From assembly GCF_002042965.1 (NCBI RefSeq), contig NZ_MZNT01000005.1, forward strand, positions 186,001 to 250,000: a stretch of DNA of 64,000 nt. Direction: 5' to 3'. This document shows positions 3,972-62,826 of this stretch, in pieces. Source of the DNA: Paenibacillus sp. 32352. Lineage in GTDB: Bacteria > Bacillota > Bacilli > Paenibacillales > NBRC-103111. The notes under the pieces were generated by a model. It was not told where the DNA came from. It worked only from the letters and a program-made list of their open reading frames with translations, and ran no database searches. Each line of letters begins with the position of its first letter. The stretch's first letter is position 1. The translations under genes and the position numbers were made by a program.

Positions 3972-4050
3972 GAGTTTTTACGGAATAAAAACTTACTTCG
4001 TAAGCATAAGCTGAGTTTTTACGAAGTAAAAACTAACTTCGTAAGCGGAG
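3972..4050. repeat. Two tandem copies of a ~40-bp hairpin unit
   Basis: The unit begins GAGTTTTTACG and ends CTTCGTAAGC and occurs at about 3972-4012 and 4013-4050 with small differences. Each contains the palindrome TTTTTACGAAGTAAAAA or a variant, which would act as a terminator hairpin on either strand. A third, partial hairpin (CTTACTCCGTAAG) lies at about 4258-4270, on the far side of the repeat element at 4052-4251. Confidence 0.7.
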
Positions 4051-4051
4051 T

Positions 4052-4251
4052 CTGTTGAAAAAAACATAAAGCCTGAACTATTGCCAATATGCTCCAGTGG
4101 GGTATACCCCTCCAGCCGCTATTGAAACCCGCGAAAGGTGATTATTTTTTTGTGGTATTTTCACGGGTTTCAAAGGCGGACGTAAACTCCTCCGAGGCAT
4201 ACCCCACCTCCTTATGTAGCATAGTTCAGGCAAAACAGTTCTTTTCAACAG
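4052..4251 (+). repeat. 200-bp palindromic intergenic element, copy A
   Basis: First of four copies. The ends CTGTTGAAAA and TTTTCAACAG are perfect inverted repeats. Inside are the family's conserved blocks: TTGCCAATATGCTCC, a GTGGGGTATACC arm facing GGCATACCCCACC, the central stem (TGAAACCCGCGAAA facing TTTCACGGGTTTCA), and GGCGGACGTAAACTCCTCCG. It is flanked by related small hairpins (CTAACTTCGTAAGC before, CTTACTCCGTAAGC after). No credible gene lies inside. Orientation here follows the conserved block order; copy D is reversed. Confidence 0.85.
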
Positions 4252-4338
4252 CCTATTCTTACTCCGTAAGCATTTCGATAAGCAAGAGCTTCCCCCCCTT
4301 TATCCTGGATAACCGGAGTAGCCCTTGCTTACGAGATT

Positions 4339-5499
4339 TTAGATTCCAGCGAGAGTCAAAACATTGCGCATCCGTTCGGCAGCCAAATCCGGATTGACCA
4401 GCAAGCCTGCTTTGTCCGCCAGCACGAACAGCTCCGACAGATGAACGACGGATCTTGCGCCCTCGGCTCCGCCGATCATCCGGAAATGGTTTTGATGCCC
4501 GTTCAAATAAGCCATAAATACGATACCGGTTTTATAAGCATAGGTCGGCTTCTGGAAGATATGCCTTGACAAGGCTACCGTTGGCTCCAGCAGCGCATTA
4601 TAACGCGCTTCGTCCCCGGAGTCCAACGCATGAATCGCTGCCGCCGCCGCAGGAGCGATGGCGTCGAAGATTCCGAGCAGAGCGTGGCTGTAGCCTTGCT
4701 CGTCCCCGCGAATAAGCGTCGGGTAATTAAAATCGTCCCCTGTGTACATTTTCACATGAGGCGGAAGCAGCCGGCGCATCCGGATCTCCTTCTCGTCATC
4801 CAGCAGGGAAATCTTAATCCCGTCCACCTTGTCGGCATGGGAACGAATCACCTTCAGACACACTTCCATGGCCGCGTCCAAATCGCGCTCTCCCCAATAC
4901 CCGGCTAATGCGGGATCGAACATATCCCCGAGCCAGTGAAGAATGACAGGCTTGGATACCTGGCTCAATATTCGTCCATAGACCCGTTCATAATCCTCCG
5001 GCCCCTTGGCGCAAGCAGCCAAAGCGCGGCTCGCCATAAGAATAACCTGCCCTCCAAGCCCTTCCACGAAGGCTACCTGCTCCTCATAAGCTTGCTCCAC
5101 CTGCTCCAGCGTTACCTGCGGCCCCGGAGCCAGATGATCGGTACCCGCTCCGCATGCAATTCTGCCCTGTACGGCTTGAGCTTCGGCAATAGAACGGCTG
5201 ATAAGCTGCTTGGCTCGGTACCAATCAAGCCCCATGCCTCTTTGTGCCGTATCCATCGCCTCGGCGACGGAAAGTCCAAGGGACCATAAATGACGGCGAT
5301 AAGCCAAAGTGGCCTCCCAATCGATCTGAGCATGATTCAAGGGATCCGCATCGGCAAATGGATCACAAACTACATGGGCGGCCGAGAACGCGATGCGGCT
5401 TTTCAGCGGGCCTTTGGGCAATTCGATTGGTGCCGATTGTCCCGGCGTATAAGAGTAAAGCGAGCCCCCTGCACGGGGGAGCTGCAATAGACGGCTCAT
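4339..5499 (-). CDS. Dihydrodipicolinate synthase-like protein, DUF993 family
   Basis: 386 residues of a DUF993-type, aldolase-like TIM barrel protein. Visible segments include RIAFSAAHVVCDPFAD near residues 35-50, GLSVAEAMDTAQRG, the ACGAGTDHL stretch, VILHWLGDMFDPALAGYWG, a candidate Schiff-base Lys in VDGIKISLLDDEKE, and KMYTGDDFNYP. The class is related to N-acetylneuraminate lyase/DHDPS enzymes, but no reaction is established to my knowledge. The start has AAGGAGG nine bases upstream. It lies 12 bases after the dehydrogenase stop, so the two are one operon. I infer carbon-carbon cleavage of the product of the dehydrogenase/isomerase. Confidence 0.82.
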   Translation of the reverse strand: MSRLLQLPRAGGSLYSYTPGQSAPIELPKGPLKSRIAFSAAHVVCDPFADADPLNHAQIDWEATLAYRRHLWSLGLSVAEAMDTAQRGMGLDWYRAKQLISRSIAEAQAVQGRIACGAGTDHLAPGPQVTLEQVEQAYEEQVAFVEGLGGQVILMASRALAACAKGPEDYERVYGRILSQVSKPVILHWLGDMFDPALAGYWGERDLDAAMEVCLKVIRSHADKVDGIKISLLDDEKEIRMRRLLPPHVKMYTGDDFNYPTLIRGDEQGYSHALLGIFDAIAPAAAAAIHALDSGDEARYNALLEPTVALSRHIFQKPTYAYKTGIVFMAYLNGHQNHFRMIGGAEGARSVVHLSELFVLADKAGLLVNPDLAAERMRNVLTLAGI

Positions 5500-6864: not shown

Positions 6865-6887
6865 AAAATAACCCCGCAGGAGCGGGG
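6865..6887 (-). terminator. Terminator of the dinB gene (first hairpin copy)
   Basis: Read on the minus strand, CCCCGCTCCTGCGGGG is followed by TTATTTTTATT. The same 18 bases (ACCCCGCAGGAGCGGGGC at 6871-6888) are repeated exactly at 7095-7112, on the other side of repeat copy B. Confidence 0.7.
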
Positions 6888-6894
6888 CCAGATT

Positions 6895-7088
6895 GTCGAG
6901 AAACCTATAAGGCTTGAACTATTGCTAATATACTACGGTGGGGTATGCCCCTCCAGCCGCTGTTGAAACCCGTGAAAGGGATCAGATTTAGTGGTATTTT
7001 CACGGGTTTCAAAGGCGGACGTAAACTCTTCCGAGGAATACCCCACCTCCATATTTAGCAAAGTTCTCGCAAAACTAGGTTTCTCGAC
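6895..7088 (+). repeat. 200-bp palindromic intergenic element, copy B, with 18-bp direct repeats
   Basis: Ends GTCGAGAAACCTA and TAGGTTTCTCGAC are perfect 13-base inverted repeats. The inner arms are GGTGGGGTATGCC facing GGAATACCCCACC, with central stem TGAAACCCGTGAAA facing TTTCACGGGTTTCA. It is bracketed by exact 18-bp direct repeats, each a GC-rich hairpin (6871-6888 and 7095-7112). This is the clearest copy for judging a target duplication. Confidence 0.88.
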
Positions 7089-7163
7089 AGACTCACCCCG
7101 CAGGAGCGGGGCTATGATTTCGAAGCCAATATTGGAACCGGAACTTTTTATACAGATATGTCC

Positions 7164-58322: not shown

Positions 58323-58355
58323 AAAAAACGCTCCGGTTTCGGGAGCGTTTTTTGT
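58323..58355. terminator. Terminator after the ABC exporter genes (first hairpin copy)
   Basis: AAAAAACGCTCCGGTTTCGG then GAGCGTTTTTT. A degenerate second copy (CGCTCCAGTTTCGGAGCG, then TTCTTTG) lies at 58561-58585 on the other side of repeat copy C. Confidence 0.88.
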
Positions 58356-58357
58356 TT

Positions 58358-58553
58358 GGTGAGAACCCTAAAGAGCTTGAACTATTGCCAATATACTCCG
58401 GTGGGGTATGCCCCTCCAGCCACTGTTGTTCTCGGGAAACTTGAATATATTTTCTTGCAGGTGTTTCCCGAGAACAAAGGCGGACGTAAACTCCTCCGAG
58501 GCATACCCCACCTCCATATGTAGCATATTTCTCGCAAAACAAGGCTTCTCAAC
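58358..58553 (+). repeat. 200-bp palindromic intergenic element, copy C (different central stem)
   Basis: The conserved blocks match the other copies (ACTATTGCCAATATACTCCG, GGTGGGGTATGCC facing GGCATACCCCACC, GGCGGACGTAAACTCCTCCG). Ends TGAGAA and TTCTCA pair. The central stem is TTCTCGGGAAAC facing GTTTCCCGAGAA, with no sequence similarity to the TGAAACCCGTGAAA stem of the other copies. Pairing is kept while sequence has changed completely. Flanked by duplicated terminator hairpins. Confidence 0.88.
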
Positions 58554-58589
58554 AACCCTGCGCTCCAGTTTCGGAGCGTTCTTTGTTTG

Positions 58590-62566: not shown

Positions 62567-62588
62567 ATGCCGGCTTTTCAGCCGGCAT
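62567..62588. terminator. Hairpin after hpaB promoter region (first copy)
   Basis: ATGCCGGCTTTTCAGCCGGCAT, a perfect hairpin. A slightly shorter copy (ACCAGCTTTCAGCCGGCAT, 62794-62812) lies beyond repeat copy D. On the minus strand it is followed by TTTTTGTG, so it would end the GH105 transcript. Confidence 0.75.
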
Positions 62589-62590
62589 CA

Positions 62591-62792
62591 GATTGTTGAG
62601 AAACTCTTTTTTGCGAGAACTTTGCTGCATATGGAGGTGGGGTATGCCTCGGAGGAGTTTACGTCCGCCTTTGAAACCCGTGAAAATACCATTAAATAAA
62701 TCTTATTTCACGGGTTTCAACAGCGGCTGGAGGGGCATACCCCATCGGAATGTATTGGCAATAGTTCAAGCTCTACAGGTTTCTCTACAATC
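62591..62792 (-). repeat. 200-bp palindromic intergenic element, copy D (reverse orientation)
   Basis: Ends GATTGTTGAGAAAC and GTTTCTCTACAATC (one mismatch). Inside, in reverse order relative to copies A-C: GGTGGGGTATGCC, CGGAGGAGTTTACGTCCGCC, the central stem (TTGAAACCCGTGAAA facing TTTCACGGGTTTCAA), GGCTGGAGGGGCATACCCC and TGTATTGGCAATAGTTCAAG. Bracketed by two copies of a GCCGGC hairpin. Confidence 0.88.
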
Positions 62793-62826
62793 TACCAGCT
62801 TTCAGCCGGCATTGTTCCCCTGTTCA

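Follow-up and report, generated by a model that had tools for sequence, protein, structure and literature searches.

Paenibacillus repeats inserted at terminator-like hairpins have IS1182-type ends and a conserved core that may be selected as RNA

Introduction

Four non-coding palindromic sequences of about 200 bp lie in a 64,000-nucleotide stretch of the genome of Paenibacillus sp. 32352 (GCF_002042965.1, contig NZ_MZNT01000005.1, positions 186,001 to 250,000), the whole of which is here called the window. They raise the question of whether such a family is a structured RNA or a mobile element recognised by its structure. A first-pass annotation made from the sequence had left these two possibilities side by side, proposing a covariance search in the full genome and in relatives, a test for covariation and a mapping of the copies against genes. 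Both halves of the alternative are supported by our data: the mobile half by duplicated targets, by identity among copies and by empty sites, the targets themselves being hairpins, and, less firmly, the RNA half by covariation among 106 sequences, by a strand-biased wobble in the core and by the orientation of the copies in three of four sets.

Results

Four copies in the window

All four copies were recovered at their reported places, aligning with one another over about 200 bp. Their conserved part is a core of about 100 nt in which two stems, P1 and P2, surround conserved loops. A covariance model of this core (R2), built from 40 diverse cores, finds exactly these four copies in the window, with scores of 95.9 to 112.5 bits, together with four weak shadows on the opposite strand. 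The features are:

4053..4250, plus strand: copy 1, with TGT...ACA ends; core 4099-4203
4036..4046, no strand: degenerate sequence ACTTCGTAAGC that may be the left target duplication of copy 1, with its right partner ACTCCGTAAGC at 4261-4271
6889..7094, plus strand: copy 2, which measures 206 bp and separates two duplicated hairpins; core 6940-7042
6871..6888, no strand: terminator-like hairpin ACCCCGCAGGAGCGGGGC, left duplicate at copy 2; score 18, identical (locus L002)
7095..7112, no strand: right duplicated hairpin of copy 2, from the flank alignment
58357..58554, plus strand: copy 3; core 58403-58507
58329..58356, no strand: left duplicated terminator of copy 3 (hairpin and T-rich run); right partner 58561-58587, score 18
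62594..62789, minus strand: copy 4; core 62641-62743
62800..62812, no strand: part, on one side, of the duplicated hairpin of copy 4; score 13 (locus L017)
62576-62588, no strand: hairpin partner of copy 4, inside ATGCCGGCTGAAAAGCCGGCAT (62567-62588)

The sequence blocks described as common to all four copies are not identical in all of them, copy 2 having TTGCTAATATACTACG and GGAATACCCCACC and copy 1 having GTATACC in their place; in copy 3 the central stem is swapped as a unit (TTCTCGGGAAAC / GTTTCCCGAGAA). The fold of the repeat as one long hairpin proved far above chance, copy 2 with its flanks reaching -119.5 kcal/mol (z -10.0) and the opposite strand of the element alone reaching z -10.5. 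What the earlier anatomy had missed are the duplicated hairpins outside the element ends. Copies 2, 3 and 4 have clear flank repeats (scores 18, 18 and 13), and the score of copy 1, which is 8 and thus below the control 99% point of 10, is not significant on its own. To the left of copy 1, the interval 3974-4046 holds tandem-like palindromes (TTTTTACGAAGTAAAAACT, ACTTCGTAAGC), being perhaps repeated targets or a separate small repeat, and a mechanically called open reading frame of 102 amino acids (4089-4397) in the ORF list overlaps this copy.

At least 119 places in one genome

The full-genome covariance search extended the family far beyond four copies. The full-length model R1 identified at least 119 distinct places, obtained from 130 matches after removing by hand 11 reverse-strand rows with the same coordinates, with 150 of 1783 candidates scored. 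A blastn search with copy 2 (40 of 120 candidates scored) gave 50 rows, comprising at least 40 near-full-length places, 3 partial ones and 7 reverse-strand rows. Five copies, including copy 2, are identical across 207 bp; two of these lie at contig ends with matching flanks and may represent a single copy. Contigs of this assembly start or stop within identical copies at L004, L005, L059, L060 and L061, so that further copies, and any repeated autonomous insertion sequence, may be missing from it. The elements are short, non-coding and numerous, have inverted ends and target duplications and differ in presence and absence among relatives, as is general for MITEs.

A subclass has an accessory hairpin inserted in the core, with similar sequences among the members (GCTTCCGAnGnAGCTTTC..GAAAGC or GGCTTTGC..GCAAAGCC, by eye), namely at L010, L228-L231 and L234, and also at L417, L421, L423, L427, L435, L418 and L442. 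By eye, its site is the 5' internal loop in the Paenibacillus sp. 32352 genome and the vicinity of the P2 3' strand in genomes of f2, another family of the same order. At one locus (L225, G000:C70:247412-248156) two core elements adjoin in opposite orientation, the second being bordered on both sides by GGTGAGATACCTCACC, a palindrome which resembles a P1 arm and not a terminator.

Whole hairpins are duplicated at the insertion sites

Reading of the flanks showed most copies to be bordered on both sides by a short palindrome, often with an A-run and a T-run as in an intrinsic terminator. We aligned the left with the right flank of each copy locally and used mismatched flank pairs as control, taking their 99% point as threshold. 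In class A of this genome the two flanks repeat each other above the threshold in 23 of 28 copies (the exceptions being L021, L024, L028, L029 and L030), and the repeated segment is nearly always a whole terminator-like hairpin. The same holds above control for 6 of 11 class B copies, for 3 of 4 copies of the 243-nt class and for 10 of 14 copies of the genus g19. Replacement of the stem-loop as known from IS1272, in which the target is deleted and no duplication arises, does not fit these copies, the class A flanks repeating at the frequency given above. An empty site was found for copy 2: the orthologous intergenic region in two genomes of the same genus (G007 and G010) consists of one hairpin of other sequence, without the element.

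The ends are of the IS1182 type

The termini CAGATTGTCGAGAAACC and CTCGACAGRCTC of the repeats match the CAGGCTGTCGAGAAA..TTTCTCGACAATCTG ends of IS1182 relatives or close variants of these, in the opposite reading order in the relatives that were read. A scan for such relatives left 79 loci, from which 40 loci from about 15 genomes were chosen for the flank test; most genomes being represented more than once among them (several copies per genome), it is the sites and not the genomes that are independent. Both ends were recognised in 38 of the 40 (all except L094 and L127). The flanks repeat above the control 99% point in 35 of the 38 and as a palindrome in 34; L104, L108 and L113 fall below this point, and L119 lies above it with a repeat that is not palindromic. 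The repeats and the IS1182 relatives thus share the type of target duplication, i.e. a repeat of a whole hairpin. Taken together, we hold with high confidence that the copies in the Paenibacillus sp. 32352 genome are MITEs with IS1182-type ends.

An intact IS1182 transposase was not found in the 70-contig assembly, in which PF13751 gave two fragments only; the assembly is broken at repeats, and a transposase copy may therefore have been missed. The absence lowers the claim of a resident partner and leaves that of a past action of IS1182 as it is. One fragment (L057:3458-4057) corresponds to positions 297-486 of the 488 positions of NCBIfam NF033551 (E 1.8e-62), scoring 211.8 bits against a whole-protein cut-off of 270, as expected from its truncation, and 80 bp away from it a 65-bp segment is 86-88% identical to the MITE end. 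This neighbourhood and the recurrence at L057 of the extra hairpin of L010 might point to an origin of the MITE by internal deletion from L057, but the 243-nt MITE subclass (L228-L231, L234) has the same hairpin, so that L057 may be a chimera.

The earlier annotation had named an exact match to a named repeat family or to a MITE of a known insertion sequence as an outcome that would argue against a new structured family. Such a match is partial here and concerns the ends, which are of the IS1182 type, but not the core: among 59 loci with IS1182 relatives the core model gave 2 matches, both outside the insertion sequence, and none inside it.

The core occurs with other ends in another family of the order

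Beyond its own genome, the core is spread widely. In a sample of 299 genomes of the class, R2 detected it in 26, i.e. the Paenibacillus sp. 32352 genome and 25 of the 26 listed f2 genomes; every listed genome of other orders was negative, as were 253 further genomes outside the list. Two of the named relatives, P. baekrokdamisoli (L084) and a Paenibacillus sp. (L148), have the core, and from the named relatives we infer the order carrying it to be Paenibacillales. In G346, a complete f2 genome, at least 93 core matches were obtained (150 of 2150 candidates scored). With blastn in the genus g19, most of the matches listed span the interior alone, approximately query positions 42-164, and at other loci the same core is found, by eye, in differing arms such as AGTGAGTTCAAATTGT (L207), TTGGAGCGTGTTCAAAATG (L209) and CTAGAAGTGCGGTGAA (L214).

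Many elements in G346 end in TATATAAATTGAACTAAA or near variants (65 matches with at most 2 mismatches). One of them (L292) is filled in G346, G410 and G193 and empty in G204 and G363, as judged by reading, and in G407, as judged by coordinates; the empty site in G204 and G363 is CTCTATTTAAAATTC. A duplication of TA fits best by the symmetry of the ends, and an 8-bp duplication of TATTTAAA fits the coordinates equally well, either of which is unlike the hairpin duplication of the IS1182 type. Among 18 loci with the f2 end sequence, 8 have the core motif, another 3 (L417, L421, L435) combine the core with an additional hairpin, L438 is a deletion form and L433 shows an end only; no full element without core was seen among the 18, of which the remaining 5 read away from the element and are uninformative. 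The deletion form, from G420, is a shortened element in which most of P2 is gone and both ends are kept, i.e. a natural deletion. There are accordingly at least two vehicles: the IS1182 type duplicates a whole hairpin, and the type with TATAAATTGAACTAAA ends duplicates either TA or 8 bp. Found through the order, including in elements whose ends differ and which duplicate no hairpin, the core predates its IS1182-type vehicle.

The stems of the core covary

In the diverse set, arms pair within an element and not between elements (P1 9.9 versus 5.2, distal arms 10.8 versus 5.7). In class A and in g19, swapped arms pair about as well as real ones (P1 in class A 8.0 versus 8.6), as is expected from copies that are nearly identical. 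The covariation proposed as a check is present: across 106 cores, 13 base pairs are formed in 96.5% of cells and 9 of the 13 show double changes. Smaller sets contain compensatory changes as well. Double-changed cells number 278 in these 106 cores compared to 92.5 after shuffling and at most 72 after sliding, in an alignment which was fitted to the model and so leans towards the structure, and in which the copies are related by descent and the counts are not independent. Within class A alone, P1 has no double change and 11 of the 13 pairs depart from pairing via unpaired cells only. A candidate pseudoknot, in which the apical loop motif would pair with the CCGCT strand, was dismissed, showing no apparent covariation by eye.

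Wobble pairs, and folding in some sets, favour the complementary strand

An A-C apposition on the strand used in the first-pass annotation corresponds to a G-U pair on its complement, so that counting both kinds of mismatch, with one nearly fixed position omitted, compares the two strands. In P1 and P2 together, A-C and T-G stand at 77 to 15, whereas the distal arms, i.e. the transposon ends, stand at 137 to 121 (Fisher 1.1e-7). With every group, position and pair entered a single time, the core stems stand at 51 to 14 and the distal arms at 103 to 84 (p 0.001), and counting per element (of 162) gives 50 versus 7 for the core and 49 versus 48 for the distal arms. The distal arms of class A are biased as well (13 elements to 3), the internal control thus holding for the pooled data only. 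With the core stems biased and the pooled distal arms balanced, the core stems look selected, more than the arms do, as a complementary-strand RNA; the same balance disfavours a uniform mutation bias as the source of the asymmetry.

Folding of the core with P1 points the same way in several sets, the complementary strand folding better in 63 of 70 elements of G346, in 23 of 24 of the other f2 genomes and in 23 of 27 of class A. It is not clearly better in class B (10 of 15), g19 (6 of 14) and the diverse set (11 of 17), and with the core alone class B favours the opposite way (3 of 15). For copies 1-3, the strand taken as plus in the first-pass annotation is probably antisense to the relevant RNA.

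Orientation along genes and replication

Mapping of the copies against genes, called by a simple longest-ORF method, showed the favoured RNA strand to be mostly gene-sense in three of four sets but reversed in the fourth. Between tandem genes of G346, 36 of 47 copies are sense and 11 antisense (p 3.5e-4; 70 of the 93 places used). The counts are 14 sense versus 3 antisense in class A (28 placed) and 19 versus 3 in the other f2 genomes (27, orthologues kept in), compared to 5 versus 10 in the diverse set from the same family, f1 (28).

Replication has to be weighed alongside, being coupled to gene direction. In G346 the sense strand of the copies is the leading strand in 52 of 70, including 15 of 15 between divergent genes, so that replication could add to the orientation bias. 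The orientation of the core on C1 of G346 tracks the replichore, with 12 plus and 26 minus before 3.45 Mb and 45 plus and 10 minus after it. At tandem loci of G346 with head-on genes, 5 of 7 copies follow the genes.

Discussion

Our data suggest a model according to which the repeats would be non-autonomous transposons, moved now or recently in trans by a DDE transposase of the IS1182 family. This enzyme would recognise CAGATTGTCGAGAAACC-type ends and attack palindromes, in many cases intrinsic terminators, at their 5' feet, and after gap repair the element would be flanked by two complete hairpins. Of these, the upstream one would be without a T-run and the downstream one would keep it, with transcription predicted to read through and end at the downstream hairpin, so that the element should join the 3' end of the upstream transcript. 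There the core may act in cis as an RNA domain within the host transcript, being a protein-binding site or a target of processing, and, more weakly, the most likely function of this domain would be to make the insertions tolerable to the host.

The layers of this model differ in strength. Covariation and wobble make it fairly probable that the core is selected as RNA. The joint reading, in which a terminator-inserting MITE moved by an IS1182-type enzyme carries such an RNA-selected core, cannot be firmer than this RNA layer, and class A fails the distal-arm control; we consider it likely to the same degree. A wider reading, which we regard as plausible rather than probable, takes the core for a mobile RNA domain, occurring some hundred times in each of the two genomes counted, throughout the order and in at least two vehicles, which would be selected as RNA in host transcripts while the DNA arms serve transposition. 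The specific role of the core as a cis-acting RNA is more tentative again, though possible.

The strongest alternative, which we nevertheless judge unlikely, is that the core is kept as DNA, i.e. as a folded single strand or cruciform needed by the transposase or a host factor, the ends diverging with the enzymes. The copies are indeed mobile palindromes whose core rides with ends and duplications that differ, the excess of leading sense strands in G346 might stem from a single-strand mechanism linked to replication, and a conserved U-G pair, found in 103 of the 106 cores, is on the strand other than the favoured RNA. A DNA role sits poorly, however, with a wobble in P1 and P2 that is biased to one strand while the pooled distal arms are balanced, and with IS1182 relatives that have like ends and move without the core, the core model matching at 2 of 59 loci and there outside the insertion sequence.

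That the core is instead a host regulator of the riboswitch or leader type, captured several times by MITE ends, we consider improbable. Several f2 copies lie just 5' of start codons and by eye are co-directional with them (L269, L276, L277, L285), and in the sense tandem class the next gene lies a median of 66 nt from the edge of the core span, both as a leader would have it. Against this stand the sheer number of places, at least 93 in one genome and at least 119 in another, recent differences in presence and absence, and the copies within terminators or between convergent genes. Very improbable is an ordinary young MITE burst, in which conservation reflects recent common origin only: the five identical 207-bp copies would suit it, whereas the loops and the pairing are kept across genera while both sides of the stems change, and the outer arms differ among genera. 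A REP/IS200-type element moved by an HUH (Y1) transposase is scarcely credible, since its hairpin with conserved unpaired bases and its replication-strand bias would be matched here, but not the long hairpin target duplications and IS1182-matching ends of the Paenibacillus sp. 32352 genome.

The preferred reading, a MITE of IS1182 type with an RNA-like core, can be set against known systems. IS1272 and TnSha1 of staphylococci, both of the IS1182 family, target palindromes or terminator hairpins without a sequence consensus and delete the stem-loop wholly or partly without duplication (PMC5678879, PMC4923244). The same transposase family, as assigned by NCBIfam to the fragment in this genome, and the palindrome and terminator targets are common to both. 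Unlike in these elements as there described, the whole stem-loop is here duplicated on both sides, which corresponds to the duplicating alternative with attack at the 5' foot in the model of Wan et al. (pathway b, PMC5678879), and the repeats contain no transposase and have an unrelated core. Similar to RUP and BOX of pneumococcus (PMC3049150) and to QMITE2 (PMC10969869), the repeats are short and non-coding with terminal inverted repeats, about 100 copies and predicted stable folded transcripts; in contrast to what the accessible parts of these papers describe, a core is common to differing ends and duplications, with covarying stems and a one-strand wobble throughout the order. As MITEs, the repeats are of a known kind, and it is the shared RNA-like core and the whole-hairpin duplication that set this variant apart.

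If this is right, a selfish element would hold a conserved RNA part other than its transposition signal, the same part being used by different vehicles, and would offer a direct handle on the question of how a genome copes with a hundred insertions at transcript ends. Apart from this, the whole-hairpin duplication allows structure-dependent DDE transposition to be tested cleanly by comparison, the alternative duplicating pathway of Wan et al. (PMC5678879) being observed here in 34 of 38 IS1182-family copies.

Searches for a previous description included a literature search, without subscription papers or ISfinder, in which no account of such a Paenibacillus repeat was found; the accessible parts of a paper on Paracoccus IS1182 (PMC3281130) and of PMC9208149 contained nothing useful for the repeat. 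A plasmid collection gave no match for either form. With its conserved loops and variable stems the core resembles the structured RNA families of Rfam 15, which gave no match in the window at the gathering score. A named family, the other outcome that would have counted against novelty, is likewise missing for the element in Rfam, and an RNA family this widespread and unlisted there would, if the reading is right, be worth adding.

At E values up to 1, 15 loci with elements gave three Rfam matches below the gathering score, two of them near chance (E 0.6 and 0.9). A credible T-box lies beside the element at L216 (1106-1360, below the gathering score, 82.2 bits, E 1.1e-16). The core element of this locus is located near position 1499, between the T-box leader and the start of a gene which, from its first residues, we take to resemble alanyl-tRNA synthetase.
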